Shown here: piece by piece, positions 12,301-61,325 of the stretch | Layout of the letters: each line of letters starts with the position of its first letter | Numbering within the stretch: the stretch's first letter is position 1 | Assembly (NCBI GenBank): GCA_963082975.1 | Contig: OY720344.1 | Coordinates: 64,074,546-64,138,545 of the forward strand | Length of the DNA stretch: 64,000 nucleotides | Direction: 5' to 3' | Source of the DNA: Labia minor | Lineage: Eukaryota; Arthropoda; Insecta; Dermaptera; Spongiphoridae | Notes under the pieces: model-generated | Told to the model about the DNA's origin: nothing | What the model saw: only the letters and a program-made list of their open reading frames with translations | Databases searched by the model: none | Program-made: the position numbers and the translations under genes

Positions 12301-15300
12301 CTTAGTTATTATTTTATATCTATAATAATAAAAGCAAATGTAATGTATGTGTCTGTCTGTCTGACCGAGCTCTCCAGGCAAATCTATCGCACGCAGGGAC
12401 ATGGAATTTTTTACACGGAAGCACAAAGGGGCTGGCCACCAGACCTCGAAGCCCGATTTTCGATTTTTTAATTAGAAAAATTTTAAAAAAATTATAAAGA
12501 ATATTAATTAAAAATAGTTTAGTTACCATACTAGATCATAGAGGCGCTGGTGGCGATAATTTGGCGGTAATTTAAATTCTGAGCAATGTGCAGATAAAAA
12601 TCTTTTTATATATCTACTAGCTGCTCAGAGCGCCTTCGGCGCTCTTCACACCTAGACGGGGGCTCCGCCCCCTGTACCCCCGAGTGGTACATAGTATTTG
12701 GTTGAAAGTAGTAAAAGGTTTTCATCCATTTTATTTCAATCCGTATATTACATAAAACATTCATTTCTTTTTGTGTTCTTATTCAAAATCTATTTTAATT
12801 TAATCAGTAAATTAATTATATATATTATTATTATTGTATATGTTATATCTATCTATCTATGTGGCTCAAAGATACTGGAAAGTTCTTGGCCACAACAACC
12901 ACATTTCTCCAAGTGTCCCTATCCTGAGCCCTTGTCCCATCTCTCTTACGTCCCTTCCTACGCGTCATTGGTTTTCCAAGCGGACGTTTTCCAATCGGTC
13001 TCCTCACCAATATCTTTTTCCTCTCCCATTATAGCCACGTGCCCTGCCTATCGCAGCTTTTTCCCTTTTATAACCCTAACTATTTCTGAAGATGCAGAGA
13101 GACCATGCAATTTCTTGTTATGCTGTCTCCCCCATTCCCTGGTGACCTCATCTTTCTTTGGCCAATAAATGCAGGGAAGAATCCTATTCTCAAATACTCT
13201 GAATCTACTCTCATCTCCCAGGGTCATAGACCATGCCTCCCACCCATATAATGCAACAGGCAAAATAATTTTTTATATATTCCCTTTGATAATAATTTTG
13301 AAGAGATAAGCCTCTTTATTGAAAAGATAACAGGCGTTTCCAGATTGCAACCCCGATTTAAATTCTTCTCAAATATTATTATCCTTCGTGATTACATTCA
13401 ATTTTTCTACATATTCAAATTCTACATTTTGTATCTTAAGATTTTGTATGTTAATACTCTTTCTCTTTGTTACTAAATATTTTTTCTTATCACTATTAAT
13501 TTCAAACCTCCATTAATTTTTCCTCGCTATCTGCAATTGCAATTTCCTAATCTCCTATTATATTTAAGTCGTCTGGGTAATCTAACATTTTACAATTGAT
13601 ATTTAATTTTTTTGATTCATTATAATAAAATTTAAACAAATAAAAATTTTCACTTTGTTAATTTATATAAATTTCAATTTACACTGATTGTGAGTGATAC
13701 GCTTTGCCAATACTCTGAATAATTTGTGTATAGAAATATTGAATGTTCTTAGCGAGATTTTTTAACCTTTCACTTTCAAATAGAAAAGAAGAAATATTCA
13801 AATATATAGAAAGAATAAATAAAAATTAAGTTAATATAAATATGATCTAAATATTTTATTAAATTAATTAAAATGGGAACTTTTAGAATAAATGATTTAA
13901 TTGAATTGATATTTAAATATTAGAATTTAAAATAAAAAGTGAAATATTATAATAATTCTTTTATTGAGAATCGCTATGATAATTCATTGTTTAAAATGAT
14001 TCCGCTCGAGCCAGTGGGCCACGCCAGGCTCTTGAATGAACAACACGGAGAATTATATAAACTTTAAAAAATTAATTTCTGCGGTTATTGTTTAGATATA
14101 AATGAAATTTATAGCCTATGTTACTCTAGAGGTATATAAGAATATTGTGATGAAATTTCATAGAAATCGGTTCAGCCAATTCTGAGTCTATAAAATAGTA
14201 ATTTTCCGGACAGACAGACAGACAGACAGACAGACATGAAAAATTCTAAAGTCACTTTTGGATTCTAGAGGTCATGAAACGCGAAGATATGCAAAAAATT
14301 TTAAATTCTGAGCAATGTGCAGACAAAAACCTTTTTATATATATATAGATGTATATATAAAAATAATCTAGGCGTGAAGAGCGCCGAAGGCGCTCTGAGC
14401 AGCTAGTTAAAGAATAAAAAAAGAATGATTTGAAAAATAGATACATTTTTGATGCTTTTCATTAAAAAAAAATTCAAATTTTAATAAAATGTTATTTTCA
14501 AAAAGTTCAACTGCTGAAAATTGAAACAATTAGATGATGTTTTTCAAAATGGAAAAGTTATGATAAACAGCTAGATTAATTCATTTTTATTAAAACTTTT
14601 AGTAAATATAAGTATAGTAACGGAAAAAGCAAGCTCCCGTCTAGCTAGTGCAGCACCATTCTCAACAGCAATAATATGTAAATTAAAATTAAAGAAATTA
14701 TTTTTTAATTAAAAATTAATTTTAAATGATTGGCAGTTTTATGTTTGTATCGTATTAAAAATTAATTTCTTTAATTTTGATTCATATATTAGTGCCGTTA
14801 AGAATGATGATGGACTAGCTAGAGTGGTGTTTAGTTTTTTCCGTCACTGTATAATCATTGCAGTTTTTATATTGAGGGAAGTTGAAGGTGTAGAAGCTGA
14901 AAAATATCTGAATTTTATTCTTTATATTAAAAAATATTGATTTATTGGACAGTTTTTGAATTAAAAGAAGGGTACTTTTAAAAAAATATTTTTGGATTAT
15001 GTAATATTCATAGAAAAGTTTGGTTTATATTATTAAATAATTAGTCAATGGTTATGTATATTTATTTGTCTAAGGTAATGCTTTATTTTTATTTCTATTT
15101 ATTAATAAATCCTTTATTTGTTTTTAATTTTTTTAGGAGAATTTGATATTTTCTCTTCTCTACATTAATAAAATTTGGTAATTTCAACTTGAGAACAGTT
15201 GTGAGACAAAATATAGAAAAGACGAATGAGATTCATTTAAAATATAAACATTATTTCCAAGAGATTGAATTTATCTTGACACAATTGTTCATTCTTATAC

Positions 15301-18300
15301 TTTACAAAAAAAAAATTTAATTCATAACTTCAATCAATTATATTATGTTATAATTATTATTTACTTTAAAAAAGTGTTAATCCAATTGTTAATTTTATTA
15401 TATGGAAGGTTAAATGTTATTAAAGTTTATATTACCATAATTAATGTCAATTAAAATGGGTTATGATAGTAAATATGAAAAAAACTCATATAATTACTTT
15501 CGTTAAATATAAAGCTTTTCTAAATGGTGAAAGTGAAAATTCATAGTTTGGCAACCCTAACGAGCTTCAATTATCCTTCAAAGTTAAATTTTTTAAAGAA
15601 ACAACAAAAAACATTCACATCTACTTTTGAAATAAATAATGATAATAATAAAATTTTAATTGGATAAATACATTATATTATTATAAAACGGTAAATTCAA
15701 ATAAAAATTATTCGTTAGAATTTATTCTTCATTTTGTAAATTATTTATCAATTTTTTTATATTAAATAAAAAGATTACAATATTTTATTGAGTTAACAAA
15801 AATAAATAAATAAATCTATTCAATATGAATTGTTATTTTTTTCTGTCACTTTTGTTATTTTATATTAATCTGTTATCCTTCTAGATTAATCTCGTCAAAA
15901 TAATATTTGATTATTTTGTTTTATACATAATATAGTAAATATCTATCTAAAAATTGATTGTGGATTTGATTGAGAATTTTATTTATTATATCTCTTTTAC
16001 TCTAACTCTATTTTTGTCTCATTTTCATTGAATTTTCATTTGAATTGATAACATTTATTTTTATTTATTTTTAATTTTACACCCTCCAGTCCAAAAGAAA
16101 CTGAACTTTTTAAAAAAAACAATGTATATTTTGGAACAAATCATTTTTATTAATCAATGTATTCCCTTTCTGCATCGATACACAAATTTACACGCTCCAA
16201 TAAGTTGTCAAACGACGCACGGAGCCAGATCTGGTGAATATGGCGAATGATGCAAAGGAATAACGTGATTTTTGACCAAAAATTCAGTTACAAGTCGCAA
16301 ACGATGTGATGGTGCATTATCGTGCAAAAGAGTCCAACTGCCGATTTCTCGATATTCTGGCCGAATGCGACGAATTCTTGCCAGCAAACGCTTCATGACG
16401 CCCAAGTAAAACTCTCCAGTGACTGTCTGGCCGAGTGGAACAAATTATTTGTGGATAATTCGATATTTTCTTCCGATAATCCGGTTCTGGGACGGCCTGA
16501 TCTTTCGTCATCATCCAGTGTCTCTCTACCCGATTTGAATCGCCCGAACTACTCGTAAACTTGCGTACGGGATAGACAATCATCACGATATGCATTTTGT
16601 AGCATTTGGTGCGTTTCAGTAAAAGTTTTCCCAAGTTTAACACAAAAATCAATTGCAGCTCTTTGTTTGAAACTCATTTTCCGACCGATGTGCAAAACAC
16701 ACTGACATTTAAAACGCAATAACTTTTGTTATATGCATCCAAATGTCATGAAATATATACCAGTTGTCAATGAGGGACTAAGCCATCTACGTGTAAAATA
16801 TTACAACAGATGGCATTAGTGGCACTATTTTTTTTTTAAAAGTTCGGTTTCTTTTGGAATGGAGGGTGTTTATATAAATATACATGTATATACCTATATA
16901 TATATAATTTTTTTGTTATATTATTTGAATACAATGGATTTGCTTTGTATAATATGGAAAGAGCGTTTCCTCTTAGCCACCCAATTCATTTCATGTTATA
17001 TGTTATGATAACATTGCTTGAGGATCTCCGGGAAGGGAGTTCTAAAACAGTTGGACCGGATGGTTGGCTGTCAGGCATAGCAAAGGGGTTAGGATGATCG
17101 GTCCCTGATTTAGAAGACCATTCATATGTCCTTAGCAAATGTTAAAATTACATATAATAATAAACTCCACTTGTATTTGTAAGTATTATTCGTTTCGTTT
17201 TTTATACTAGATAAAAATAAGTAAAATATATAAGATGACATACATTGAATTGAGAGTTTGATAAAATCAATACTTTTTTAAATGGGAATGTTAAATAATC
17301 TTTGATATGTCTAAAATTTCATACTATTAGATGCATTATTAATAAAATAAATCAATTTACAAGTAAAACAATATAAAATTAGTGAGAACCCATAAAATCT
17401 ATAATATAAATGAAAATTAATTGAATGACTTCAAAACTTAATAGAAAGATAGATTTAACTGAATTAAGATATATCCAACTCATACCTACAACACTAAAAA
17501 AGGGTTTGCAAAAAGCAAAAAAAAAAAAAAAAAATAAAATAAAAAATACCTTTTGGGATCGCTTTTTTTGTATTTTGTATTTTATTACTTTTTTATAATA
17601 ATTAAATAATTGAAATGATATAGTATATATTAAATTTTAAGAGTAAAATAAATCTTTTCTAATTAAATTATAAAAATGAATGATTTATTTTCATTAAAGA
17701 GAACCCTTACAATCATAAAACTTTAAACGACTTTTAACTTATAATAATTTGTGTTAATCAATAACTTAAAGTGTGTCTGTGTTTAAGTTTAATTTTTATT
17801 TTATATACTCTTATATTTTATAAATCAATAAGAAACTGGCGTAAGATTACCCAAAAAGTTCCTCTATCTTTAATTCATTCTAAACAAAAAATGTAGTGAA
17901 ATATAAAAAAAAAATTACGTAAGATGAAGAAAAAAAATTTTAGTAATGTTTAGTACATACAAAATAATTATAGATTTTAATTGTGAAAAATGAAAATATA
18001 AAGTATCATTAAGATCGAAAATAGATAAATCACAATAAATACATAAAAATAAATAAATTTAATATACTTAAATATAAATATAATTATACTAGGAAAAAAA
18101 TGTTTATCAGAAAATCTTTTTAGTATTAAATTAGAATCAAAGATTTTGGTTAATTTTTAGTTAGAAATCGATCTATTTTATTATCATTATTGGATAAATA
18201 TCAAAAAGTATTAAAATCAAAATATTATAATGATACTAGTGACTCTTTAGGACATCGACAACAATATAATAGAACAAAGCTTTAATTTTTATATAAATAT

Positions 18301-21300
18301 TAAATTAATTTTGATCAGATATTTCTAAACTTTCTGTCAAAAAATATATAAAATATTCCAATTGTATATTGACGTAAACAGTATCTTCAAGATATAATTT
18401 TCAAGGAGCAATAAAAAAAAATTAAATGTAAAGGAAAATTACTTTTCGTTCTTTATTAATTTTTTAAAATAAGTAAGTTCCCAGGCCTCACCATTTATAA
18501 TTATTGCTCCACCTCTCCTTTCTAATATAATACACCTATCCCCCGATTTACACGGTAGATACGTTCCTGAGAAAAACGTGTAAATCGAAAATTAAAAATT
18601 TTCAAGTCAAATCCGTGTAAATCGAAAAGCTTGCAGAAAATGCATAATTTTGCTATTTAACAGTTGTGATTTTTTTCAATTTTTTTAGGTGTACACAGAA
18701 ATAAAAATAAAATGCATTGACAGGTTAAAATATGTAATATATTACGGAAACACTGTTTTTTTATTTAATTACAATACATTAAACAGAAGAACAAAAAATA
18801 AAACCAAAGGTGTTTTATTATCCTTCATCACTATCAGAAATTACTCTCATTCTTTTTTTCGGAATCGAAGTTTGGAATTCACTTTCATCACTCGAAGTTA
18901 TTTGTGCCGATTCGATGTTTGAAGCAGAAATATTTACATTCTGAGAGGTGGTAATAAAATCGGTTATTAACAATTGTGCCCATACACGTGGTATTGCCAG
19001 CTGCAACACTCTTTCTAATTGTTTTTTCATTTGTTCTAATAGTTCTTATTGTAGCTTCGTTCATGCTATATGATTTTGCAACATCTACTATTCTATCTCC
19101 CTATCGTAAGCGATCCAAAATTTCGATTTTAGTTTCTAAAGAAATAACTTTTCTTTTAACTTCTTTCGACATTATAAGCCTATAATTTTTTTTAATTAAT
19201 GTTAATTTATAATAATCTAAATTATGCACTCACTTGTAATTTACGAATATGGAAAATTAAATCTTTCTGAAACTGTGAAACTTTCACTCAAATACAATTT
19301 TCCGTAGATAAAACTTTAATTTTATGCGAAGAAATACAGACACAGTAGTAGAGTGCGATAAAAACAAAAAAAAAAACTTATTTGGAAAACCGTGTAAAAG
19401 CGAAAACGTGTAAAACAATTACCGTGTAAATCGGGGGATAGGTGTATTATAAAATAATAATAAACACATTTTTTAACTATTTAATATGAACAAAAAAAAA
19501 AAAGAATACAAAATTTATAGAATAATAACGAATGTTAGCGTTTACTGAGATGATTGTGTGAATGTTTATTATTAAATCTCTTGTGTTAAAGACGAGATTG
19601 CCGCTTGTTACTCTTTTCTACTTATTTATTAAAATTTTTAAATATGGATTTATACATTGATATTTATTAATGTTGATTTATAAATTATTATTATATTATA
19701 TATTATATTTATGTTAAAATTGTCGCGCCTCATTCTTCACTGTTATTCTTAGAAGTTCGATTGATCTGCACCGGTCTTAATTTTTAGAAAAACATAAGTA
19801 AAAAATCAATAAATTAAGGGTTTTTTTATAAACTAAATTGTGGCAATTGCACCATATTTTCTTGTTTGTTCATTTTTTAAATTTATTTATTATCTATATA
19901 TATAAAAAGATTTTTGTCTGCACATTGCTTAGAATTTAAAATTTTTTGCATATCTTCGCGTTTCATGATCTCTAGAATCTAGACTTTAGGATTATTTATT
20001 TATTAATATTATTATTATTTATTATTACCGCAGAAATTATTTTTTTAAAGTTTATATAATTCTCCGTGTTGTTCATTCAAGAGCGTTGCGTGGCCCACTG
20101 ACCCTAGCGGAATCATTTTCACAATGTGTATATATTAATTATTATAGGAAGTCCCAAACAAAGAATTATTATAATATTTAATTTTTTATTTTAAATTCTA
20201 ATATTCAAATATCATTTCAATTAGATAACTTATTCTAAAAGTTCTCATTTTAATTAATTTAATAAAATATTTAGATCATATTTAACTTAGTTTTTATTTA
20301 TTCTTTCTATATATTTAAATATTTCTTCTTTTCTATTTGAAAGTGAAGGATATACATTTTATCATTGTCTAATATAAAAAACAGAATATATTATTTTTAA
20401 TGTTTTATGAATACAAAAATATTTTCAAAACGTCAATTAAAATGGCTAAATTATATTATTTTTGTTTTTATTTCAATTATTAATTATATATTATATTTTA
20501 TATATATATTATATATATATAACTTATAGACATATATATAAATCTAATTTAAAAAACCTTTTTTTAACATTTGGTTTTAAGATTGAAAAAGTTAATTTTA
20601 TTGACTTTTCTTAATTTTAATAATTATATTTATATTTCAAATATATTAGAATATTTTATTAGAAAAATTTAAAAGGAGGGATCAAAAGAAACAGACAATT
20701 GTTGCTATTCATCAAATATTTGTAAATGTTTGTAATTCTTAAAATAGCCTTAATGTTATAATACTTATAATACTTTATTTAATAATAACTTAATATTATA
20801 TATTTTATATTTTATATTCAAGAAGATACAATTTTAGTATTACTTTTTACTTAAGAAATAGTCAGAATATTTAATAAAAGAAATTAATCCATTCATATTA
20901 ATAATGAAATTATTTAATAGTATCAATCAAAAAATAATATTAAAAAGAGGCAAATCATTTTAATATATATATACGAATGCAATCTATTTATATTAAATTT
21001 TAATTTATATTATCGGTATTTATAAATAGAAAGAAAGATATAAGTACTATCTTCATGGAAGTCAGTAAAAAATAAAAATGAAACTTCTATATAATTATAT
21101 ATATAGCTCGAATAGCAAATGATTTTAGTTAGAGAAGTTTGCGTGTTTAGACTCCCACTTAATAGAAACAAACAAACCACATTTAATCACTATGATCGGG
21201 TACAAAAATAAACATTAAAAGAGAGAGAGAGAGAAGACGACGCCAATTCTTCTCTAAGATAAATCATTTAAAATTATAAGTAAATTTTTACTTTTATTTA

Positions 21301-24300
21301 GTAATATATTCTATATTACTATCCATATGACTTTAATAGAAAAGTAACAGTTCCGTACCTCTGAAATATAATTTTTTATTTTTTAAGAGAAGTTTAATAA
21401 ATCTAATCTAAAAGAATTCAAATTTTTACTTTATAAAAAAATAACAAAATATTAAAGTTAATAAAAAAAAAAGAAAAAGCAATTATTAGGATTATAAATA
21501 AAACTTTTTTTGTATATTTATAGGTGACAGAAATGATTAATATACAAATAAAAAAACTTTCTTAATTTTTTTCTTAAAGGTAATCTTATCAAGTATAGAT
21601 CATGTTTAGATTCTAGAAGATTTGAAATAGTAATGCAGCAGTAAGACAGGATGATGCATTACAGGAAGCATCACTGATGTGTATAGGTGTGTCTTCCGGT
21701 TTGAGCTTTGTCATGAAATTCTATCCACCCCCACCACCATGACTACCACCTCATTTCCCACTACAGTGATCGATCAGCCATCTTAATTAGAAACATTAAA
21801 TTACCCCACCAGGGCTTTATGAATATTCTTGAAAGTGATATACCTACTTGAAAAGAGGGCTGGTTGCAGAAGGGTGAGTGAAATATAATTAAAATTTAAA
21901 TGAAAATGTTTACTTTGAATAAAACCATTAGCTATATTATATCAATATTTTAAATAATGGTGATATAAACAAGTATTAATTGGTGGAACAATTAAGTTGC
22001 AGAACATAAACGAAAGGTGAAATTATATATTATATATGTATTTGTTTGCAAGGTATGTTTAATAAATAAGTGTTGGAACAATAATGATGATGAACTAATA
22101 AAGCTCAGTTCTGTATTTAATAGGGCACAACAAGGGGTTATTGACCTATAAAATTTTAAATATAGGTATAAGACAATCTCTATGATTACTCGGTTTATAA
22201 CTTGATATCAAAAATTAAATAAATCCCATTTCAAATTAAAATTTATCATGTTCGATTTCAAAATTATATATATACTAGTTGAACCCGTTGCAAACGGTGG
22301 TTGCAATTTCAGTTTAAAATGAATTTATCGTGGTTTGCAACAATTAATTAAATAGTTCTTTGAAATCAATATTTTTCGTATACCTAATGATCATTTGTTA
22401 ATAATCTTCGTTGAGCGGATTTTCTTTAATTTTTGTTTTGATGTTGTTCTGGTCGTGGATATTAAAAAATTTAAAAACGATAAGTTCATGTTTAATATTG
22501 ACATTTGTTGGTTGAGCTAATCTTTGGGCTGTTACCTGTGTATAGTAGCGTCTAGCCAGGAGGGAAGCTCGTACCCCCCCAAACATTGTGCAAAAAATAA
22601 ATTTAAAAGTGATTAGTTTTGTAACTGAGAATCCAAATGTAAAAAAGCATCTTTAAATTACGTATAAGTATAGTATAAAAGTTATGAATAAATAAATAAT
22701 TTATTTTGTCAAAAATTTTTCCGGGGGAAACCCCTGGAATCCCCCCTGCCCCCCCCCCTCCCAACATAATAGATCACGCTACGCCACTGCCTGTGTATAT
22801 ATATAAGTATATAATTTAAATAATAATTTAAATATTTAAATAAAAATCAATTAATTTAATATTTAATTAAATATTTTGTTTTAATAATTATATTTATATA
22901 CTAGCTGCTCCGAGCGCCTTCGGTGCTCTTCACACCTAGACGGGGACTCCGCATCCTGTACCCCCCGAGAGATACATTGTATTTGGTTGAAAGTCTGTAT
23001 GTAAAAGGTTTTCATCCATTTTGTTTCAATTAGTATAAGTAGATAAGACATTTATTTGTTTTCTTGTAAAATATATTTTAATTTAATCAGTAAATTAATT
23101 ATTTATTATTATTCTATATGTTATATTTATCTAACTCTGTGTCTCTACAGTTTTCGAAAGTTCTTAGCCGCAGCATCCACATTTCTCTAAGCGTCCCTAT
23201 ACTGAGCTACAACCAAATCCTACCATTTCCCTTCCTTCATTGTGCACCTACCTTGGTCCTTGGTCTTCCACAGGATGTTTCCCAATCGGATTCTCCCAAT
23301 TTCTAGCTTCTCCCATTCCAGCCACGTCCCCTCCCATCTCAGCCTTCTCGATTTTATAACCATAATTATATCTGGAGATCATGCAATTCTTCGTTATGCC
23401 AACTCCGCCATCCCCCTGTGACCTCATCTTCCTTTGGCCTATAAATGCTGCGAACAATACTAATCTCACTAATACTCTAAATCTTCTCTCGTCTCCCAGG
23501 GTCATCGATAGGGTGACCAAACGTCCCGTTTTTAGGTGCTCAGTCCCGGCGTCCCCAAAAATGTCTTCGGAACAGCCTATTGTCCTGTTTTTTCAAGATT
23601 TAAACATTTCGTACTTTTTTTCAAAATATTTTCAATTTAGTTCTAAAAAAAAGATAAACCGTTTGTCCCGGTTTGGTGTTTTCGAAATATGGTCACCCTA
23701 GTCATCGATCAACATGAAAAATAATTGTTTTATATATTTCAATTTTGATCCTCTTTGATAATAGTTTTGATGAGATAAGCCCCTTTACTGCATAATAACA
23801 GGCGTTACTCGATTACAACGTCGATTTAAATTCTTCTCGAATATTATTATCCTTCGTGATTACAGATCTTAAGTATTTAAATATTTATACTTTTTCAAAT
23901 TCTGCATTTTGTATGTTAAGACTTTGTGTGTTAATATTATTCCTCTCTGTTACTAAATACTTTGTCTTAGCACTTATAATTTCTAACCCTGTCTCTTTTC
24001 CTGCTTCGATTAATTTTCTTACGCTGTCTTTTATTGCAGTTGCCGAATCTCCTATTATATTTAAGTCGTATCCGTAGCATAATTCATGAATTTTTTTTTA
24101 ATTACATTTCGGTTGATTTTTCCCCAATTTCTCTAATCACATGTCTTCCAGTCCAATTCATTTACCTATCCATGTTGCATAAGGCATTTAAATTTCTTAA
24201 TTTGGCTCCGTTTTTTAAAATTTTAAATAGAGGGAGAGAGAGAGGTTCTAATTATATATATATATATATATATATCTTCCAACGTGAATTTGACCCACAT

Positions 24301-27300
24301 CCAAATGTTTGAATGAGCTGAAATTTCGCATACATATGTAACTCCGATGACAATCCCAGGTCATTATTATCAGGTATTATTTTTATCAATTAGTAATTAC
24401 ATATTAGATAATATTGAAAAATAGTAATTATGTACATATTGAATAATATTGAAAAAGATGTTTGGGAAAAAAAGGCTGCTTTTAGGGTTTTCCTGGCAAT
24501 TATTCGATTTTTTCTCGCCATCCTTGGACTTCAACGAACATTTTAAAAAAAGAATTGTCAAAATTGGTCCAGGCGTTATTGAGTGATGCGGTTACCAACA
24601 CATTTTGCGATTCATTTTTATTTATAAGATTATTTATTTTATAACAAATAAAACTTATATAATATAATAATATAATAGTTTATACTAATACATAATATTG
24701 AAAAATACAAATTATTGATAAATATATTAATAAGAACTAATTTATCAACAAATTCAAACGCCAAGATGAAATTGGATTAAAAGAATGAAATATAAGCATA
24801 AATCTAGTATTCAATTAACATTTTTTTTAAAACACATAAAAATCAAATTACCATTTATACCATTTATAGAATAATTTTGTTTTTTACGAAAGACTCATTG
24901 AAAGTACAAAGACGCCACCTAGTGGGTCTTTGGGGGCAACTTAAGTGGTTAGGTGAAAAGGATACATACATATGATGATTATGGCTTTTATATATATAAT
25001 ATATGGTATATATTCTTATATATATATATATATAAGAATTTTATTATTCTGTTATATGCAGGGTGAGTTTTGGTCCTAGATATTATTAGATGAAAATAAA
25101 TTCATTATTTTTGAAAGAAAAATCAATGACAATGATCATTTGGGAATTTAAAAAAGAATTGCATAATCTCTATGCACAACCAATCTTAAAATCATTACCA
25201 TAATTAATTTATCATAACAGCAATAATGTTAAAATACAATAATAATAAGAGAATTTGAATTCATTGAAGGTGCTATCTCATCATCAATCATTTCCAATCT
25301 GATATAATTTTATTTTAAATGAATAGATTAATCTTTTTTTTTACAAATATCTTCATTTCAAATAAAATTTTTTCTTTGACAAGAAATTCTTTAGAAAATG
25401 AAATTATATATAGACGAATCATCGTTTTTTTTATATCAATTGTAAAATAAAATTCTAAACCCCTTTCTTCTCTGATCTTTTTTTAATGGGAGTCAAAAAT
25501 TTTTTTAATGAGTTCACAATGATTTTTACTAAATAATAAAAATACATTAAAGATTTAGTATGATTTTTTTTCTTGGATTATACTTCACATTATTAATTTA
25601 CAAATAATCTTGGATATAATTATATAGTAATGGTTAAAAATACTATTATTTAAGATATTTACTGCTTATTGAGTTTTAATTTCAACTAATAATTAAAAAA
25701 AATGTGTTATGTTTTTTTAATTAATAATGTTAATATTTATTCACTTGGTATCCAAGTGTTTTCTAGAGATTTGTAATATTAAAAACAAAAATAAATTTTT
25801 TTTATATTAATATAAGAAAACAATATTTATATAGTATTTTTAGTAGCTATTTTTTATTACAATCTATTTTTTGTTTTGGATGAATATACTTAAATATTGA
25901 TGTATTTTTATTTGCCTCCTATGCTACTATTTTCATATTCCACGATTTATACTCAAAAAAAGAGACGAAGGTGTTTCATTGATAAATCTATAGAAAAAAA
26001 CACTCTTCTTCTTCGGTGAATTAAAATTCATTTTAGCTATGATCTGTTCGAGATAAATCAAAATGATTTCCTGTTTGATTGGTAAATGTCGGCTGGCATA
26101 TTGAAAATATTTGTGTGTTGATAACATCCAAATGGGTAATGCCATTTGTAACAAAAAAAAAACGGAGAAATTTTGACAAAGGAATGAAGATGAGATATGA
26201 ATAAATTGCATATTTCAAGGAAGATAGAACCGTCCGTTCATGCATAATGTAATACACGTGATATACCTTTTTTTTCTCAAAAAATATTTAATTAAATAAA
26301 ATAAAAATAATATTTTTCATTTATCTATTCTATTTCATTCATCATTCTATCTATCTATTTAGTGATCACAACAGTTTTTACCAATATTTAACAACCTTAT
26401 TCCTCCAACTATTTCTATCCTAAACCATCCAATTATTAATTATCTGATTTAATTTAAAAGTGACCTCACATTAAGATTTAATAAACGATTAAAGTAATAT
26501 CATATTATTTTTTCTCTGGTTTATAATATAATTAAAATTAATTCAAATTAACTATTAGAGAGAATATTTCAAATTGTCTTAAACAAAATGACTAATAAAA
26601 TAAAGAGTTCAATGACAAAAATATAATAAGAAAAAATAATTGTATCTTTTAATGTAATATAGATAATTAATTTTATTGAATTCATTTGATTTTTGTTAAA
26701 GCTGAAATGCCAGACGCCGTTAAATAAAATAAGCATGAGTGGAGAGGGTGCGGATGAAAAAGAGAGAAGCTGTTCAGGAGCATTTGTTACCATATTAAAT
26801 AAATGTTTGGTCTATTTTCATAAACAAGCATTTGAGTAAGCCTGAAGGATAGCTGTACTGAGTTGATGCATTTGAGAAAGGGTAAAAAGGGCTTGGAGTG
26901 AACAACAAGGATGAACTTCAAACCGGACTCGGCGGAATGCAGCCTCAGACAACAATCCCGGATGCCTTATAGGGACGGTAAATGTACTTGATTCAACTTC
27001 TCATCGGAATACCAGGCAGAATTGCCGTAAATGTTTGATTTAATCGATCCATCCAGCGGTCACTCCATGTTATATAAATTAGACAAAAGGGGTTAGGGAT
27101 TAAATTTTCATTTAGAAGGGTTAGCTGGAAAGATAATAAATTCATTATGCATATTTATTTGAAAAAAAGCAAAAAAATACCATTTACACTTGGTTACATT
27201 TTATTTAGAAAAATAAAAATATTTCTTTCTTAAAAAAATTATATATGATATATCATCATTACTCTCTTTAACCACTGCGTTCTAGGTATTTCCTTATGGT

Positions 27301-38023: not shown

Positions 38024-38798
38024 ATGGAATGGGGATCGGGGCGTTACTAAACGCGAGAGCGGCTAGTTGGAATTCAGGGCCATGCGGAGCACAACGCGCG
38101 TTTTGCGTACGCGAGTACTATCGCAACAACGATTCTGCGACTGAAGCGCGACGAAAATTTTGTACACAGTACGAAATAAAAATCAAGCTCCATCAACTCG
38201 TGCAATTAAAAATTTGGTACAGAAGTTCGAGGAGACGGGTTCAACATTAAATCAACCACGATCCGGCCGACCTAGGACGTCGAGAGAGCCCGTAAACATA
38301 GAGCGGGTACGAGCATCTGTTAGAGATCAACCTGGCCTCTCTACTCGAAAGCGGTCTAGTGTTTTAAATGTGTCCAGGACATCTTTAAATCGTATTCTTC
38401 ACAAGGATTTACATTTACACCCGTATAAAATTCAAATTGTACAGCAATTAAGGCCAAAAAGTCATATCCAAAAGAGGTGACATTAACTGGCCACCCCGCA
38501 GCCCGGATACCTCAAAAGTAAAATTTTTAATAACAACCCTCAGTTTATTGAAGAATTAAAAGAAAATATACGCGAGGAAATTCAGAACATTTCTCCAAAC
38601 ACTTGTCGGGCGGTGATGGAAAATTTCCGCACTAGGTTACGGGGGTGCCAAACTAAACAAGGGGCACATTTGGACGACGTTATTTTTAAAAAATAAAACC
38701 CTGATTTTTGTACTTTTATAATAAATAAACATATTTTCTCTCATATCTCTTTTTGTATTTTTTATTTGAAATGTTACCGGACTTTTGGTCCACCCTGT
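38024..38798 (+). pseudogene. Mariner-superfamily transposase, internally deleted
   Basis: The plus strand encodes the N-terminal helix-turn-helix part in two frames: APSTRAIKNLVQKFEETGST, LNQPRSGRPRTSREPVNIER, STRKRSSVLNVSRTSLNRIL. After a central deletion near 38480-38508 comes the C-terminus, SKIFNNNPQFIEELKENIRE and GCQTKQGAHLDDVIFKK, at 38509-38696. The catalytic core is gone. The right end reads CTTTTGGTCCACCCTGTA, a typical terminus; the left terminus is not recognised, so the copy is 5' truncated. Confidence 0.82.
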
Positions 38799-42530: not shown

Positions 42531-43150
42531 CATTCGGCGCTCTTCACACCTAGTCGAGTTTTTTTTATAAATATAGATTATATATCATAGCAAAGAAGAA
42601 ATATTCAAATAAATAAAGAATAAATAAAAAAAAATTCAAGATAAAAATATGATCTAAATATTTTATTAAATTATTTAAAATGAGAACTTTTAGAATTAAT
42701 TATTTAATTGAAATGATATTTGTGAATATTAGAATTTAAAATAAAAAGTTAAATACATATTATAATAATTCTTTGATTGGGAATTGCTATAGAAATTTAT
42801 ATTCATTGTGTAAAATAAGTCCCCCTGGTCAGTGGGTCAGGCTCTTGAATGAACAACACGGAGAATTATATAAACTTTAAAAAATTAATTTCTGCGGTTA
42901 TTGATTAGATATTAATAAAATGTATAGCCCATGTTTCTATAGAGGTATTTAAGAATATTGTGATGTAATTTTATAGCAATCGTTTCAGCCAATTTCGAGT
43001 CTATAACATCTTTATTTTCCGGACAGACAGACAGACATTAAAAATTCTAAAGTTACTTTTGGATTCTAGAGGTCATGAAACGCGAAGATATGCAAAAAAA
43101 TTTAAATTCTGAGCAATGTGCAGACAAATACCTTTTATTATATATATAGA
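42531..43150 (-). mobile_element. Helitron type-a copy with damaged 3' end
   Basis: The minus-strand 5' end at 43150 is A^TCTATATATATAATAAAAGG with the TTTGTCTGCACATTGC motif. The body matches the 5' 600 bp of H1. At the other end, CGGCGCTCTTCACACCTAG remains, but the outer hairpin arm and the CTAG terminus are missing, so rolling-circle termination would be lost. Confidence 0.75.
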
Positions 43151-45742: not shown

Positions 45743-47219
45743 CTAGCTGCTCCGAGCGCCTTCGGCGCTCTTCACACCTAGACGGGGGCTCCGCCCCCTG
45801 TACCCCCGAGTGATACATAGTATTTGGTTGAAAGTCTGTATGTAAAAGGTTTTCATCCATTTTGTTTCAATCAGTATAAGTAGATAAGACATGTATTTGT
45901 TTTCTTGTAAAATATATTTTAATTTAAACAGTAAATTAATTATATATTATTATTGTATATGTTATATTTATCTAACTCTGTGTATCTAAAGTTTTCTAAA
46001 GTTCTTAGCCGCAGAATCCACATTTCTCTAAGCGTCCCTATCCTGAGCTACAACCAAATCCTACCCTGTCCCATCTCTCCCATGTCCCTTCCTTCATTGT
46101 CCACCCACCTTGGTCCTTGGTCTTCCACCGGATGTTTCCCAATCGGTTTCTCCCAATTTCTAGTTTCTCCAATTCCAACCACGTCCCCTTCCCATCCCAG
46201 CCTTCTTGATTTTATAACCTTAACTATATCTGGATATTATTTCTCGTTATGCCATCTCCACCATCCCCCTGTAACCTCATCTTCTTTTGGCCTATAAATG
46301 CTGCGAACAATATTAATCTCACAAATACTCCAAATCTACTCTCGTCTCCCAGAGTCATCGATAGGGTGACCAAATGTCCCGTCTTTAGGTGCTCTGTCCC
46401 AAAAATGTCTTCGGGACACCATACTGTCCCGTTTTTTCAATATTTAGGACATTTCGTAATTTTTTTTTTCAAAATTTTTTCAATTTAGTTCTAAAAAAAA
46501 GGTATACCGTTTGTCCCGGTTTGGTGTTTTCGAAATATGGTCACCCTAGTCATCGATCAACATGAAAAATAATTGTTTTATATATTTTAATTTTGATCCT
46601 CTTTGATGAGATAAGCCCCTTTACTGCATAATAACAGGCGACACTCAATTACAACGTCGATTTAAATTCTTCTCGAATATTATTATCCTTCGTGATTAGA
46701 GATCTTAAGTATTTAAATATTTATACTTTTTCAAATTCTACATTTTGTATGTTAATTGTATGTAAGTATCATAATTCTTGAATTTTTTTGTTTAATTACA
46801 TTTCGGTTGATTTTTCCCCAATTTCTCTAATCATATGTCTCCTCTTCCAGTCCAATTCATTTACCTATCAATGTTGCATAAGGAATTTAAATTTCTTAAT
46901 TTGGCTAGAACACTCCATTTTTTAAAATTTTAAATAGAGGGAGAGAGAGAGGTTCTAATTATATATATATCTGTTTCTATGACAGCAAAAAAGTAAACAA
47001 ATTACATACATACAAACAAACACTCTCCTTTATATATATTTCTGTAAAATGGAACACCCGCATCTCAGCTCAGGAGTTACCTAAGATTCTAATTTCTTTT
47101 TCATTTTTCATCATTTGAGGTACCCTTCACCTCAGAAAAATTTGGTTACCTTACTCCTTGTAGTTTAGGCTCTGGAGTTTTTTGCGTACAGACGGACACT
47201 ATCGTATTAAATATATAGA
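45743..47219 (-). mobile_element. Non-autonomous Helitron H3 (type-b 5' end, LINE fragment, nested MITE)
   Basis: 1,477 bp. The minus-strand 5' end at 47219 is A^TCTATATATTTAATACGAT, followed by GTCCGTCTGTACGC; the 3' end has two GC hairpins and CTAG at 45743 before a T. The body has the LINE tail with the hAT MITE inserted. It is nearly identical over its length to H4, in opposite orientation 3.9 kb away. Confidence 0.85.
46362..46548. mobile_element. hAT-type MITE nested in H3
   Basis: 187 bp, ends TAGGGTGACC and GGTCACCCTA, with GTCATCGA duplicated at 46354-46361 and 46549-46556. The insertion site within the LINE fragment is the same as in H2 and H4. Confidence 0.88.
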
Positions 47220-51080: not shown

Positions 51081-52551
51081 TCTATATATTTAATACGATA
51101 GTGTCCGTCTGTACGCAAAAAACTCCAGAGCCTAAACTACAAGGAGTAAGGTAACCAAATTTTTCTGAGGTGAAGGGTACCTCAAATGATGAAAAATAAA
51201 AAAGAAATTAGAATCTTAGGTAACTCCTGAGCTGAGCTGCGGGTGTTCCATTTGCCAGAAATATATGTATATAAAGGAGAGTGTTTGTATGTATGTAATT
51301 TGTTTACTTTTTTTTTTTTGCTGTCATAGAAACAGATATATATAAATATAATTAGAACCTCTCTCTCTCTCTCCCTCTATTTAAAATTTAAAAAAATGGA
51401 GTGTTCTAGCCAAATTAAGGAATTTAAATTCCTTATGCAACATTGATAGGTAAATGAATTGGACTGGAAGAGGAGACATATGATTAGAGAAATTGGGGAA
51501 AAATCAACCGAAATGTAATTAAACAAAAAAATTCAAGAATTATGATACTTACATACAATTAACATACAAAATGTAGAATTTGAAAAAGTATAAATATTTA
51601 AATACTTAAGATCTCTAATCACGAAGGATAATAATATTCGAGAAGAATTTAAATCGACGTTGTAATTGAGTGTCGCCTGTTATTATGCAGTAAAGGGGCT
51701 TATATCATCAAGGAGGATCAAAATTAAAATATATAAAACAATTATTTTTCAAGTTGATCGATGACTAGGGTGACCATATTTCGAAAACACCAAACCGGGA
51801 CAAACGGTATACCTTTTTTTTAGAACTAAATTGAAAAAATTTTGAAAAAAAAAATTACGAAATGTCCTAAATATTGAAAAAACAGTAGGGTGTCCCGAAG
51901 ACATTTTTGGGGAAGAGCACCTAAAGACGGGACGTTTGGTCACCCTATCGATGACTCTGGGAGACGAGAGTAGATTTAGAGTATTTGTGAGATTAATATT
52001 GTTCGCAGCATTTATAGGCCAAAAGAAGATGAGGTCACAGGGGGATGGCGGAGATGGCATAACGAGAAATAATGTCCAGATATAGTTAAGGTTATAAAAT
52101 CGAGAAGGCTGGGATGGGAAGGGGACGTGGTTGGAATTGGAGAAACTAGAAATTGGGAGAAACCCATTGGGAAACATCCGGTGGAAGACCAAGGACCAAG
52201 GTGGGTGGACAATGAAGGAAGGGACATGGGAGAGATGGGACAGGGTAGGATTTGGTCGTAGCTCAGGATAGGGACGCTTAGAGAAATGTGGATGCTGCGG
52301 CTAAGAACTTTCGAAAACTGTACAGAGTTAGATAAATACAATAATAATATATAATTAATTTACTGATTAAATTAAAATATATTTTACAAGAAAACAAATA
52401 CATGTCTTATCTACTTATACTGATTGAAACAAAATGGATGAAAACCTTTTACATACAGACTTTCAACCAAATACTATGTATCACTCGGGGGTACAGGGGG
52501 CGGAGCCCCCGTCTAGGTGTGAAGAGCGCCGAAGGCGCTCGGAGCAGCTAG
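51081..52551 (+). mobile_element. Non-autonomous Helitron H4 (type-b 5' end, LINE fragment, nested MITE)
   Basis: 1,471 bp on the plus strand, A^TCTATATATTTAATACGAT at 51081 and CTAG at 52548-52551 before a T, inserted A^T. The 3' 60 bp contains GGGGGCGGAGCCCCC and then GAGCGCCGAAGGCGCTC. The LINE tail reads [11 protein letters not shown] near 51955-51990. It has no Rep/helicase. Almost a mirror copy of H3. Confidence 0.87.
51766..51947. mobile_element. hAT-type MITE nested in H4
   Basis: 182 bp, ends TAGGGTGACC and GGTCACCCTA, flanked by TCGATGAC (complement of GTCATCGA) at 51758-51765 and 51948-51955. Orthologous insertion with those in H2 and H3. Confidence 0.88.
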
Positions 52552-54058: not shown

Positions 54059-54309
54059 ATACTTCCGCAACACAAATTCAAACATTAAAAAGTATTTTTA
54101 TAAAAAATAATTATAAAATAGTTAACAAAAAGTAGAAGAGGAGTCATTTGCCATACCCACTTTTGAAGTTATGAAAAGAAAAGATTTGGCAATTCGACCC
54201 ACTCTAATGGAATTCATGAATAAGAATGAAAGGGACAGTTGTGCCAACAGAATAATAATTTCACTCGCCCCTAAATTCACATCCGTTACTTGTTGATGGA
54301 CTAAGAAAC

Positions 54310-57300
54310 TCTATCACGTCACAAATTGATTTGTTTCAAAGTCGAGGTTAAAAAAAAACTAAGTTTCCTTTCCGTTATTTAATAATTTGAACTTCAAAAT
54401 ATTTATAAATTATAAATTAAGTCTGATTTAAATTGAATAATAATAAGTAGTGAAGTATTTATAAAAAATAAAAATAAAAATAAATATTTAATGAAATCAT
54501 CTCTTACCTACTTAGACTATGCTGAAAATTCATAGAAATGATTTAATAGACCAATTATTTGTTGACTACGAGAAACCAACCCTTATAACTACGGGATTTT
54601 CTATACATCAAACAATAATTTAACAAATTTAATACGCACTATGTAATATTTTAATTCCAATGACATTTAAATTATGCTTTAAACCATTGAAATGAATATT
54701 TGATTTCAAGGAGACAAATGTTACAAGTTTCTGATGTATATCATTTTTTAGAATTTTTACTCTATTTTGACTTTACTGACTTTATTTACTCTTTAAATAA
54801 ATATGTAAAAATCATTCTAATTTGATTCCCAAATTTTTTTCTAATTTGGGATTTATTGTAATTGTTTAATGTATATTTCAATTTTATTTCTAGGCTATAA
54901 TATAATAAAGTAATATTTCTAAATCTCTTCAAGAAGTGTTTATCCACTTTAAAGGATATTTCTTGCTCCTATCAATTTTTCTCAAAAGAAACATTTTGAA
55001 CAGTTCATAAAAAAATATTAATTTTTTTCAAAATTATTAAAGTTAAAAGAATTTATTCAGACTATTACTTACACTTAATGATAAGCTAAGAATTAATTAT
55101 TACTGAGTTGAAATCTTAATTGAAATTAAATAACTTATACTAAATATTTTGTTTGTTTACTTTGACAAAAGAAAAATATTTTTCATATATATAATTGGAG
55201 TTATAATGAAAAATATAATAATATATTAAAAATAACAAAAGTAAAATATCAATGATGTTATGAGAATATATAATATTTGGGTTAAATAAAATGTTTTTTT
55301 TTTAAATAGGATGACATTTAAACGTGCGTAACAAAAGATGTTACCCTCTCTCTTAGACCTTCGTATCTCATCACACACACACTTGATATAAACATAAATC
55401 CCTTTTAGATTGAAATTCGTTCCTATGATTTTTTTTCTTTTTCAATATCAAAATTCTTTGATACTTTCATTTTTCCTATAAAAAATCTGAATCAACTTTT
55501 TATATAAAAGCATGAAATTATATATGATTATATGCACAGATGGCAAATTTTTTTTTGTTATAACAATAAAAAAAATGTTAAAAAATTAAAATCTGTCGAA
55601 TTTTTATAGTTTTTGTAAAAACAATTATTAGCATTAATCGGAATTTAGAAATTAATATTTTTCTACTCAAATATCGTGATTATTGAAGTAAATAACGCCT
55701 CTTTTCAATTCAAAAACAAAAGAACCATTGAGGACTGTAAATTAAAAACAAAAAATAAACATTTTTTAAATAAAAACTGAATTTGTCTTAAGTATTTATT
55801 TTATTACACAACATATTGTAATATCTTGAACTTTGATTATATTTTATAAAAAAAACATTAACAATTTATTTTTAATTTAAAAAACAAAAACAAAATTACT
55901 AGAGTAGTATGAAAAAAATAATTGATATAGCGTTTCATATTGAAGAAGCGTCTGTAAGATAAGCTTTAGTCTAGCTAGGCAAAGAGATGATGATTTAACA
56001 GCCCAATAGTCAGACTACGTGTCGTGAGTGTACTGGGGCGTAAATATAATTTTTTTCTTTAATTTTACTTATAATTTAAAAGAAACTAAAAATTTATATG
56101 CTATAGATAAACTTTATTCTAGTTTTAAGAATATAAATAAATATATAAGTTAAAAGTTAATTTTTTCATAAATATTTTACTAAAAATGTGAAATATAAAA
56201 AAAATTTACATTTTCCTTTATTATAAAATTTTGAGATTAAAGACAAAGAATGAGATTAAAAATCTAGAGGGGAAGAATCTATCAGTATTTTGATCTAAAT
56301 TTAAAAAAAAAAAATAAATATAACGAAATAAATAGTAGTTTGTTTTACCAATTGAATTTTTCACAAAAATAACTTTTAATGATTTGAATTACATTCTTAG
56401 ATCACATAGTTTCTTTTCATTTCTATAATTATATCCAAATTAAACAAGTTTGAGAGGCTGTTATCGATTTTACAATAAATAAATAAATGACTTTTCTTAG
56501 ATTTTATACATGCTGAATGAATAACACATTCAATACATATATATACTATTTAAAATTATTTATTTTGTTTTAAGAATTAATTATAGGTAATATAAATTTA
56601 TATTTATTATTAATATATATTTGATTCTTTTATTTAATATAAGAAAATAAAACAGTAATAATATGCAATGATTTCAATAATAATATATTTATATAAAGAG
56701 ATTCAAGGATGATTTGATTTAATTTCTATATATCATCAACACACTTCAATACTAATTTAAAATTAATAAACTTAACCATAAACAAAGAATAAATATTAAT
56801 AAAGAATATACTTATCTTTTTATAATGTAAAATATATAATTAAAGGATGAAAACAAACCCATACCAAGTATTAATTTATTATTAACCTTATTTTTCATTT
56901 AAAAATTGTATGATAGCATTAAAAGAAACTGTTCTGAAAGGTAAAATAAAAAAAAAGAGATTTCCACTTGTGTGTTGATGAAATTTTTCATTCCTTTAAA
57001 AGTTTATTATTTTTTTTCTTTTTTTTTAAATAAAAAAGAAAAGTAAAAAGCTTCAGTTGTATGAAAGATAAGGCTTTAAAACAAAGCAAGAGAAAAATAG
57101 AAGCATAAATCATTCAACATGGTTAATGACTCTGCTACTGGCATTAAAAAAAATGTACCTAGAGTTTACCCAGCATGATATATTAGATTGATAAATATAT
57201 ATTGTATATAGAATATATACAAATATATCGAAATGAATTAAACTTAATTTTATATCTATATTAAAAGATAATAAATTGCTATTTATGCAGTAATTACTAT

Positions 57301-57590
57301 CTTTCAAATATAAAATATCCAAATTTGAATCTATTCATTATTCATCGTCCAATAATTCAAGTTGAACTTGTGTTGAACAAATTTTTTTTTTCAAAAAATC
57401 GAATACCTTAGATTGATATTAATTTTCAAAGTAGCATGAATATTAACCCTACTAGTTTTCATTGACGTTTTTCCCTTTATAAAGATGGGCTTATTTATAT
57501 AAATATAAATAAGAAACAATTTTATAAAATAACGTTTTTCCAATGGACTAAAAAGAATAAAATAATTTTTTATTTAGCCTGACAAATTTT
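54310..57590. other. AT-rich, no supported gene
   Basis: No coding exon, repeat terminus or RNA gene recognised. A slightly GC-richer patch lies at 55960-56040. Confidence 0.5.
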
Positions 57591-57666
57591 ATGGATGAAT
57601 TGCTTCATATTCAACTAAAAACGTTGGGCGCTTTTAGTTTTCATTTGACGAATGAAGCACTGTATT

Positions 57667-58003
57667 TTCTATAACTAAAAAAAATAGATATCTTATATAT
57701 AAATTGTTTTGATGCGCATGTTTAACTTTTCAATAATTCGAATAGATGCATTTTCAAAGTTATTATAAAATATTTTTAATTATAGTTTTTTTTAATTATT
57801 ATATTTATATAATATATTTTCTATATATAATATATCTTAAATATAGTTATTTAGTACATATATATAATATTGTTTTTATGCATTATTTTTCTCATATTAA
57901 TTCTTATGTTTGTGAAATTTTAATTTTACTTTCATTCTACATTGTAGAAATATATTAAAACTAAAAGTTGAGTTTTAGAGGTTTAGAAGAATAATATATA
58001 TTC
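57667..58003. repeat. Interspersed repeat, copy 2 (inverted partner of 652-1003)
   Basis: Reverse complement of 652-1003 at high identity over about 340 bp. Its right edge is directly followed by a mariner terminal repeat at 58004. Confidence 0.7.
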
Positions 58004-58033
58004 AAGTTCGGTTTCTTTGGAATGGAGGGTGTA
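58004..58033. mobile_element. Solitary mariner terminal repeat
   Basis: AGTTCGGTTTCTTTGGAATG followed by GAGGGTGT matches the right end of the mariner at 16079-16869, with one base missing. No transposase or opposite end is nearby. Confidence 0.75.
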
Positions 58034-60669
58034 TATTTCAATCAATCATAAATTTCTTTCAATAATATAGACAATATAATAATAATCATATAATGGAAAA
58101 ATATATTCTATAGAATATTTTATAATATCGAATTTCAATTATACTGACACATATGAATATTTATAAACGTATTTTAATCTATTTAGAAAAAGTGCTGAAG
58201 CTTTATATTTATTTTTATGACTGTTTTTGGTTTAAATAATTGATATGTATGTGTTTAAGGTTCTATTTTCAGATAAAATATGTTTAATTGTTATTTTTAA
58301 TAATAAATAAATTATTGTATATTTAAACTTTATTATTTTTGTTAATTACGACCACAAAATATATTACATTTGTTTAAAAATTTTTAAAAAAATCAATGAT
58401 AAAAAGATAAAAAAATTAATCTACCTATATATAAGGAAATGAAAAATACAATAAAAAAAAATTGATTTAAAAGTTGAAGTAACTTTAGGAAAAAGTCATA
58501 TAAAAAAAAATGTCGAATTATATGTACTTAATTTAAGCTTTTATTAACTTTTTTTAATATTAAAAAGTAAAGATAGATTGAAATATTTAAAAAGAGAGAT
58601 GATAGATGTGTTTGAAGGGATAAATTCGTAAATGGTTAAGGAATTAGTGTTCTAATGATTAATGGCCAAATTATGGGAAGCAGAAAAATCAATTTAGCAG
58701 GAAGCCAATTCCCTTTCTGGAGCTCTTTTTTTTACCTTTGAGGTCAATAGCAATGTTGACCCACCTATAAAATCCCCTAAATCCATTCATTGCTCAATGC
58801 GTAACGAAGCATGAATTTATTGATTAATTTTGATCAAGTTAAAGATGAAAAATAAAACTTATTCACCCTTAGAAAAAATAATTCGTAGAGATACTTTTCT
58901 TTCATAAATATTCATTTGTTTTCTTTTTATCGAAAAAAGATCTCAATCAATCAAAACAAAATTCGTGTTTCTATCTAAACTATTATTTATGAATCACTTC
59001 AATATATAATTGAATTAATTAATTTGACTTTTTGACAACTTAATCTGTTTGTTAAAATAATAATAATATTAATTTATAATTTATTTAAATAATTGTATTT
59101 AATATTTTTTAAAATAAAAGACGACTTAAAAAAGAGAAACAATTTACAATTTTACATTTACAGCAATTACTTATGGAAAAATGAAAGTCGACTCAAAAAA
59201 TTATCATTTCAACAAAAACAATATATTATTATATATGTTAGATCGTGATAAGGTAATCGTTAAGATTATATAATTAAAAATTGTATAACATCTATGCATC
59301 CTCAAACAATCATTAACCGAAAAAGGTTCAAATGGACCAAACAATTAGTTCTAATGGAAAAATAATAATTATTATGATTAGTTGGATAATCAAAAAGAAG
59401 ATAATATTAAATTAGATATTTGAGGAAGTTATGAGAGAATATGAATTAGATGGAGGCAGGTGAAAATATGGTTGAAAAAATGAAATAAGAAACCATATAA
59501 CTAAATGACAAGATAAGGACTTATATGAATAGAAAGGATTACTAACTACAAAGATAATAATCATTCGGAAAGTTTCTGAAATATTGAATTCATGACTTTA
59601 ATTTTATTAATATATTTTATGATTTTTCAACAAAGACTATAAATTATATATATATATTATATTATTTGTATATATTTGAGTAGTTTTATGTAATTTTTTT
59701 TTTCTATTAATAATAAATTTTTTTTTGAATTTAATTCTTAGTTAGCTTCTTCTAGTAAGAGTAATTATAATTTCTAATAAAAGCCACTAAACAGTTATAC
59801 TAAGGTTTGTTTACACAATGCCAAGACAAACTTTAATCTTAATAACCCATATCTAAAAAAATATATATATTAAATATAATAAATAAAATATATAAATTAA
59901 AATAATATCATTCAATGACAAATTTCTATTTCTTCTAATCCTAATCCACAAAGCAATGACAGAATGAATGAGTTTCTAGCATGAAATTCAATAAAAAAAA
60001 ATCAACTAATCTTTTTATTCATAAAATACAGAATGATCTTATGAAATGTTGAATAGCGCATAAAGCGTTTAATAACTCTGATTAAAACTAAATATTTGCT
60101 AATTAATTATCCAAAGCTACTAAGGCAAGTAAAGAAGCTCAAATAATACCAAGGTCTACGCAACGATATATATAATATATATTATATGAATTTATATATG
60201 CCTACAGAATTAAAAAATATTACTTACTTATTGAAGATTCCAAATTTTATTAATTATTTTTTTTTAGGATCTTCTTTTAGCCTTTAAAAAAATTCAGCTG
60301 AAATACCGAATTTTTAAAGAAATGTATACTCTATTTCTACATTTATAGTTGCTATTTCTTTTTTTTTTTGAATTTGCAAAATAATATTACAAAAATACAA
60401 ATAATATTATACAAGATTTAAGAAAAAACAAACAAATAAATAAATTAAAATTTCAATATATTTATATTTATAAAAATAAAAATGAATTTATTCAAAATTT
60501 TATTTTAGTTTAAAAAAACAATCCTAAAAAATAAAAAAAAAATATTTTCCACTTCAGAAAGTTAATTATATTTTAAGTGAAATATTAAATTTACACTCTT
60601 CAAATTTATTTTTGATTTATTTTCTATCTAAATATGTATAAATGTGAAATTGTATTTGATATCTATCTA
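58034..60669. other. AT-rich, no supported gene
   Basis: A GC-richer patch at 58620-58820 includes CCTATAAAATCCCCTAAATC, a TATA-like motif on the plus strand, but no exon follows. Otherwise low-complexity DNA. Confidence 0.45.
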
Positions 60670-61325
60670 TCTATATATATATATATATAAAAGGCAATGT
60701 CTGTGTGTGTGTGTGTGTGTGTGTCTGTCAAATACTCAAAAACTACCCGTCCGATTACGGTGAAACTTTCAGGGATTGTTGTGGGCATCCCAGGGAAGGT
60801 TTTAGTGTAGTTAAATCCAAAATTAATTTATCCAAAATTAATTTAATTAGTAATATTTTGGTAAAAGTCTGTAGTGTCACAAAACTATCGACAGATGGCG
60901 CTACATAAAAACTTAAACATTCAAATATTTTTAATTTAAATGTATATATGTGACGTCACAGTTACCGCCTTTTAGATATATATCTATTCTTAAAATAAAA
61001 TTAAAAATATTTATATTATATTCATATATATGTAAAATAATAATTATATTATTTTAATATTCCTATAAGTTGGTATCACAATTTATTATTATTATGAATT
61101 ATTTATAATTTATAAGTAATAGGAAAATTTGTTGTTGATTAAATTAAAATATATTTTCCAAGAAAACAAATATATGTCTTATCTACTTATACTGATTGAA
61201 ACAAAATGGATGAAAACCTTTTACATACAGACTTTCAACCAAATACTATGTATCACTCGGGGGTACAGGGGGCGGAGCCCCCGTCTAGGTGTGAAGAGCG
61301 CCTGGAAGGCGCTCGGAGCAGCTAG
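60670..61325 (+). mobile_element. Non-autonomous Helitron H5 (type-d 5' end, short)
   Basis: About 656 bp. The 5' end is TCTATATATATATATATATA then AAAAGGCAATGTCTG, a GT run and ACTACCCGTCCGATTACGG, typical of Helitron leaders. The 3' ~190 bp matches the end of H3 and H4, with GGGGGCGGAGCCCCC and a terminal hairpin whose loop is enlarged (GAGCGCCTGGAAGGCGCTC), then CTAG before a T. The LINE tail and MITE are absent. The exact start within the TCTA repeats is uncertain. Confidence 0.72.

Follow-up and report, generated by a model that had tools for sequence, protein, structure and literature searches.

A Helitron family of Labia minor with one two-hairpin 3' end and several 5' ends, and evidence for the gain of a new 5' end by nested insertion

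Canonical Helitrons such as Helraiser and Helibat begin with TC, end in a hairpin followed by CTAG, insert between A and T without target duplication and encode a Rep protein and a Pif1-type helicase (PMC4778049; PMC5876387). Helraiser is reported to depend on its 5' end, with the hairpin of the 3' end serving as terminator (PMC4778049; PMC6544945). The ends of the insect element Hel1 are modular, and the association of one 3' end with several 5' ends is already known, being the basis of the cited rule by which the 3' end sets the Helitron family and the 5' end the subfamily (PMC6544945). FoHeli composites of Fusarium likewise show several 5' termini with one 3' terminus, and self-insertion, with transposition stopping at the first 3' end, was proposed as their route (PMC5148889). 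New elements that arise by nested insertion are also described in maize, where 17.6% of helAs have several 5' termini (PMC3288121), so that the nested-insertion route has itself been proposed in print. The accessible part of PMC2575219 holds nothing usable on 5'-end exchange.

The elements described here, which resemble these systems in the respects named, were studied from a window of 64,000 nt (the whole stretch of DNA that was analysed) of Labia minor, assembly GCA_963082975.1, contig OY720344.1, forward strand, 64,074,546 to 64,138,545, within an AT-rich genome of 604 Mb and 71 contigs. The five elements of the original prediction, H1 to H5, were found in place (Table 1), H1 to H3 on the minus and H4 and H5 on the plus strand. 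Each starts with TCT after A and finishes with GAGCAGCTAG before T when read on its own strand, as had been described, and all five are non-autonomous canonical Helitrons. The four predicted 5' types were recognised, H3 and H4 (96% identical) both belonging to type b, but to call them unrelated was slightly too strong: all open with TCT and an AT run, and single 6-mers are common to a and d (TGTCTG), b and d (GTCTGT), a and c1 (TTTTGT) and b and c2 (GCAAAA).

Table 1. Position of the Helitrons and related features in the window.
Feature	Position	Strand	Description
H1	12617..14349	-	type a Helitron, TC...CTAG between A and T
H2	22901..24629	-	c2 head (24278-24629, approximate) and b-type body, joined at an AT repeat
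H3	45743..47219	-	type b
H4	51081..52551	+	type b
H5	60670..61325	+	type d; d head about 60670-60804; b-like 3' part 61136-61325
3' module of H1	12617..12681	-	65 bp, two-hairpin
3' module of H4	52487..52551	+	65 bp, two-hairpin; folding used 52482-52551 (5 bp more)
Shared LINE-like body in H1	12930..13451, approximate	-	
a-head remnant	12571..12616	-	46 bp, directly after H1 3' end
Lone 3'-module piece	14367..14406	+	40 bp, opposite strand, 17 bp from H1 5' end
a-type 5' part	19895..20347	+	without 3' module
a-type 5' part	42587..43150	-	followed by a degenerate 3' end

Since the 3' end of H1 abuts the remnant of an a head, H1 was probably inserted into the AT-rich start of another a element. 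The window also holds, at about 38145-38480 on the plus strand, an open stretch of 111 aa that resembles the N-terminus of a Tc1/mariner-type transposase.

The 3' module comprises, within 65 bp, a hairpin, an internal CTAG, a second hairpin and the terminal CTAG. The double hairpin that had been pointed out is real, the fold of the H4 module reaching a z of -3.8 against 200 shuffles; H5 carries a loop of TGGAA where the usual module has GAA. Conservation in 71 of 73 3' ends (the two with a TGGAA loop were left out) averages 97% from -1 to -65 and 68% from -66 to -100, a measure that is unbiased at -30 to -65, about 50 of these ends having been fetched by their last 29 nt. The internal CTAG (about -39 to -36), located 3' of the first hairpin, is 99-100% conserved, and the module may be formed by two fused 3' ends as the trace of an old bypass. 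A pattern search with the 3' terminal 29-mer (up to 2 mismatches) gave 4752 + 4815 = 9,567 genome matches, whereas the reversed control gave 0. Between types, identity over the last 65 bp is 95-100%, and a and b are 98% alike also in the 50 bp that precede them. With the drift of 25% that separates the a and b bodies, the probability of at most 2 differences in 65 positions is 2e-6, so that, as judged by sequence comparison, the module is either constrained or exchanged.

Heads a, b, c and d form amplified units with the two-hairpin 3' end, as established for a, b and d by the pairing of coordinates. Genome matches amounted to 6570 for head a, 1275 for head b, 2508 for head d (up to 3 mismatches) and 1066 for the d-specific 3' end, with 0 in every control. 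Pairing was counted within 8 kb among the matches listed with 0 mismatches on parts of contig C1. There, a same-strand 3' end was located downstream of 47 of the 61 a heads and of 14 of the 16 b heads, in the latter always at 1.0-1.45 kb; the same strand on the wrong side gave 0/61 and 0/16, and the opposite strand 6/61 (either side) and 0/16. The listed d heads pair in 42 of 100 cases and the d 3' ends in 35 of 51, with controls of 0/100 (same strand, wrong side) and 1/100 (opposite strand), and the paired heads show a repeated spacing of 497-520 bp in 15/42. None of the 20 d heads listed below 15.1 Mb pairs with a plain 3' end, and no 3' end was listed within 8 kb for 58 of the 100 d heads and 14 of the 61 a heads. 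The prediction that one 3' end occurs with at least four 5' ends is borne out genome-wide by the pairing of a, b and d, together with the c end of an autonomous element (see below). At two places, C1:39863488-39864246 and C1:47811927-47814125, three d heads are stacked before a single d 3' end, which, from the coordinates, is probably due to repeated nesting.

In a set of 73 3' ends the outermost recognised head was a in 10 (H1 included), b in 8, c1 in 3, c2 in 1, d in 1 and c1 followed by b in 12, although 11 of these 12 had been fetched for that very junction. For the other 38, the sequence read contained no head that could be recognised as theirs; eight of them had at least 6.5 kb of upstream sequence, and three are explained otherwise: two belong to the autonomous copies and one to a second d copy of locus L010, which was seen separately and lies outside the head-recognition criteria applied to the 73 ends.

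Insertion of these units between A and T was examined at empty sites. Screening of 35 units against the DNA read gave at least 379 spanning matches, many of them AT-rich chance matches, and five units were aligned: L033 (a), L023 (b) and L043 and L049 (c1) gave clean A^T empty sites in which nothing was duplicated or lost, and a fifth, for L047 (a), has two mismatches at the junction and was left uncounted. The expected empty sites were thus found for units of types a, b and c1, and d was judged by its coordinates. A stretch of L009 (1529-2213) that is 94% identical to L062 (2157-2822) begins exactly after a CTAG in L009 and is a possible empty site for a c1 element. The base before the outermost head is A in 32 of 35 cases and T in 3, and T follows CTAG in 73/73 3' ends, about 50 of which were fetched with a pattern that includes this T. 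These results bear on the reading by which separate 5' and 3' fragments came to lie side by side by accident. It is highly improbable for the family as a whole: the pairing counts together with the A^T empty sites rule it out for a, b and c1, and the spacing of 497-520 bp makes it unlikely for d. It is kept for H2, whose join is single-copy by exact match.

Helentron or Helitron2 elements insert between T and T. The present family differs in this respect, insertion having occurred at A^T in 4/4 clean empty sites. The family has the features of canonical Helitrons, namely 5' TC and 3' CTRR ends (one b copy, L023, begins with CC), a hairpin immediately upstream of the 3' terminus, insertion at A^T without target duplication and, in an autonomous copy with a c-type 5' end, Rep and a Pif1-like helicase. 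The Rep/helicase element that had been sought was found with the c 5' end and the same 3' end, and none was found for a, b or d among the few Rep loci read. The PF14214 profile detected 104 places in the genome; four Rep loci were cut out and two of these, on C1 and C10, were followed to both ends. The C10 copy (C10:29930818-29937841) spans 7,024 bp, TC...CTAG between A and T, and contains a 524-aa open stretch with Helitron_like_N (PF14214, 1e-58) and a 600-aa open stretch with PIF1 (3e-68). The C1 copy spans 10.9 kb including a 4.6-kb insertion. Both have the c head after A and the module before T, and they are 92-97% alike over shared segments. The last 65-68 bp of the C10 copy show 97-100% identity with the copies of a, b and c1 used for comparison, 96% with H5 and 91% with H2; outside the module it gave no match to b at E 1e-5 and short stretches of 68-71% to a. 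On C1, Rep loci lay within 10 kb downstream of 0-mismatch heads at 0/8 loci for b and 0/9 for d. The C5 Rep locus L064 (open frame of 2039 aa) was considered as a partner of type a: its ORF is closely followed by a 319-bp a-type element, and the part of L064 that was read stops short of the element's 5' end. In the C9 Rep locus (L072), the 813 bp upstream of the ORF showed no convincing head match.

The body that H1 to H4 were predicted to share is indeed common to them, at 74-96% identity. Its LINE origin is suggested by a YADD-like motif and a C-terminal region that we take to be LINE-like, and by a weak RVT_1 match (E 0.098, 12.8 bits against a Pfam cut-off of 29.6, that is, below cut-off); no Pfam match was obtained at E 0.001. 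In 50-bp steps, copies of the same type are 90-100% alike (last 660 bp) and bodies of different types 61-93%, one between-type step (45% over 11 comparable bases) being set aside. The c1 elements have an a-like body in which about 240 bp are missing between two copies of a short match (CACTYGG). A body tree of 42 of the 73 ends, with the composites left out, separated b and H2 (c2) from a and c1 with support of 100/100. In L031 two a-type 3' ends occur in tandem, the second starting at internal position 618, directly after the first CTAG.

The 12 elements in which c1 is followed by b allowed an exchange of 5' ends to be resolved. In one of them, L024, the first 395 bp are c1; a b element follows, which retains its own 5' end and has an internal deletion, and the module closes the unit. 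The c1/b junction occurs with 0 mismatches at 12 places on contigs C1, C5 and C6 and at none with 1-2 mismatches; a further 11 places, with 3 mismatches, resemble ordinary insertions of b. All 12 composites start with the c1 head and end in CTAG before T, 11 lie after A (L024 after T), and their flanks are all different, which argues against segmental duplication of one locus as their source. Similarity among them reaches 99.96% over the c part and 99.8% over the b part, compared with 95.7% among eight ordinary b copies, and their spread is on this comparison a recent burst. The join coincides exactly with base 1 of b and with an A^T of the c element, outside the shared body, and all five c copies examined (L043, L036, L049 and both autonomous copies) contain the uninterrupted site, AAGC(T/G)AAATATC. 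The position of the join, the uninterrupted c site and the burst together show, at the level of sequence, that b was inserted at A^T in a c element and that the unit from the c1 5' end to the CTAG of b then spread as a whole. The host of this insertion may have been a c1 element or one of the autonomous kind, since the c part of the composites is about as similar to the C1 autonomous copy (98.5%) as to L049 (98.7%). The nested parent, b inside c followed by the remainder of c, was not among the 12 places.

Template switching and the use of alternative starts had been put forward as routes of the swap, and the one resolvable case gave the former no support. Homology for template switching or recombination that swaps 5' halves does exist in the LINE-like body, which is common to the types, and the join of H2 lies in an AT repeat instead of at the start of b; the resolved join, however, lies outside the shared body, and this route is regarded as quite improbable. 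According to the main reading, to which a probability of about 0.78 is given, the family has one 65-bp 3' terminator and at least four 5' ends, and new pairings come from nested insertion at A^T. One Helitron would insert at A^T inside another; transposition would start at the outer 5' end and stop at the first 3' terminator met, and the inner 3' end would thereby gain a new 5' end. In the composites the c Rep would nick the outer c end and choose the target. Types a, b, d and H2 may have arisen by the same route, which was traced for c1 and b, the inner 5' end presumably decaying or being deleted afterwards, and the module could serve several systems as terminator. Nested insertion of this kind could also have given rise to H2 at an earlier time: an exact search, which is a demanding criterion for a copy that has diverged, finds its join of c2 head and b body once in the genome, so that this pairing need not be a mobile unit.

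A similar outcome would follow if it were the 3' end that moves: unrelated Helitrons would have lost their own 3' end, or read through it, and terminated at a copy of the module farther downstream. End bypass is reported experimentally for Helraiser (PMC4778049), and the 58 listed d heads without a d 3' end within 8 kb suggest that other 3' ends may exist. The composite, however, ends at the first module encountered, a case of termination rather than of bypass, and no a, b or d copy with another 3' end was identified among the elements read. This explanation is considered unlikely, and nested insertion is preferred.

Composites and ordinary b elements also appear to differ in where they insert. 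The motif AATA, beginning at +6 to +8 of the right flank and first noticed in the composites, is present in 12/12 of them and in 6/6 other c-headed elements, as against 0/8 for b, 6/10 for a, 1/2 for d, 8/35 for ends without a recognised head and 7.5% of the A^T sites in the window as background; a new set fetched as a test gave 0/10 for b and 3/10 for a. Moreover, the right flank resembles the element's own 5' sequence after TC. Among 8 registers, an offset of 2 scored best in a, b, c and the composites alike, with 8.1, 6.9, 8.3 and 8.2 matches of 13, respectively, over a background of about 5 (permutation p 2e-5, n=56), and the nearest 5' end was that of the own type in 14/20 a, 16/18 b and 10/18 c flanks, the composites within c being nearest to their own in 8/12, to a in 3/12 and to b in 1/12. 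Because this offset was chosen after looking, the new b and a flanks were added and a comparison in any register was run, from which the composites were left out, as was H1, itself located within an a head; it gave p 5e-5 (n=43), with p 2.5e-4 for b against c (n=24) and p 5e-5 for a against b (n=37). The composites are distinct from b (p 2.6e-5), whereas their difference from c is not clear (p 0.08). An earlier comparison in the same register had separated the types in part (p 0.003, n=38), with neither b nor d (n=2) its own best match.

These values come from a small sample of 56 flanks in which all sites are AT-rich, the preferences of a and c overlap, c has 6 non-composite members, d has too few, and the flanks of L043 and L049 (both c1) and of L087 (a) are nearly the same and belong to one repeat family, so are not independent targets. 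Within this sample, site preference would differ by 5' type and resemble the own 5' sequence without TC, and the composites would choose sites like c and not like b. Both observations are possibly new: the open-licence literature searched, mostly at the level of listings, yielded no report of Helitron targets that resemble the element's own 5' end, which is not proof of novelty. In Helraiser, the preference for AT-rich targets is reported to be strongest on the 3' flank. Tentatively, and with somewhat less than even confidence, the 5' end could carry the choice of transposase and of target while the 3' end serves as generic terminator, perhaps for several transposases. One DNA recognition would then nick the donor between A and TC followed by a sequence X and the target between A and X, the 5' sequence after TC would be a copy of the preferred target, and a new 5' end would change where the element goes.

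The composite provides a sequence-level case of a Helitron that gains the 5' end of another, in which the two parent types, the site of insertion and the descendants can all be seen. Should larger samples bear out the target result, the choice of target could be read from the 5' end and would be set by it; if true, this can be tested in cell assays, in which donors with an outer c end would insert before TTATAAATAAA-like sequence, and would help to predict where such elements insert.

Compared with canonical Helitrons, the present family has two conserved hairpins over 65 bp, common to several 5' ends, and in the copy read Rep and helicase are found in two overlapping open stretches. Hel1, as described in PMC6544945, keeps its 5' end and varies the 3' end, the reverse of the situation found here. 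The worked example in maize concerns several 3' ends (PMC3288121), whereas in L. minor a 5' composite of two families was traced to its insertion site. FoHelis are described as Helitron2/Helentron-like (PMC5148889); the elements of L. minor, in contrast, have canonical ends, join two different 5' families and include 12 near-identical composite copies that were resolved to the base.
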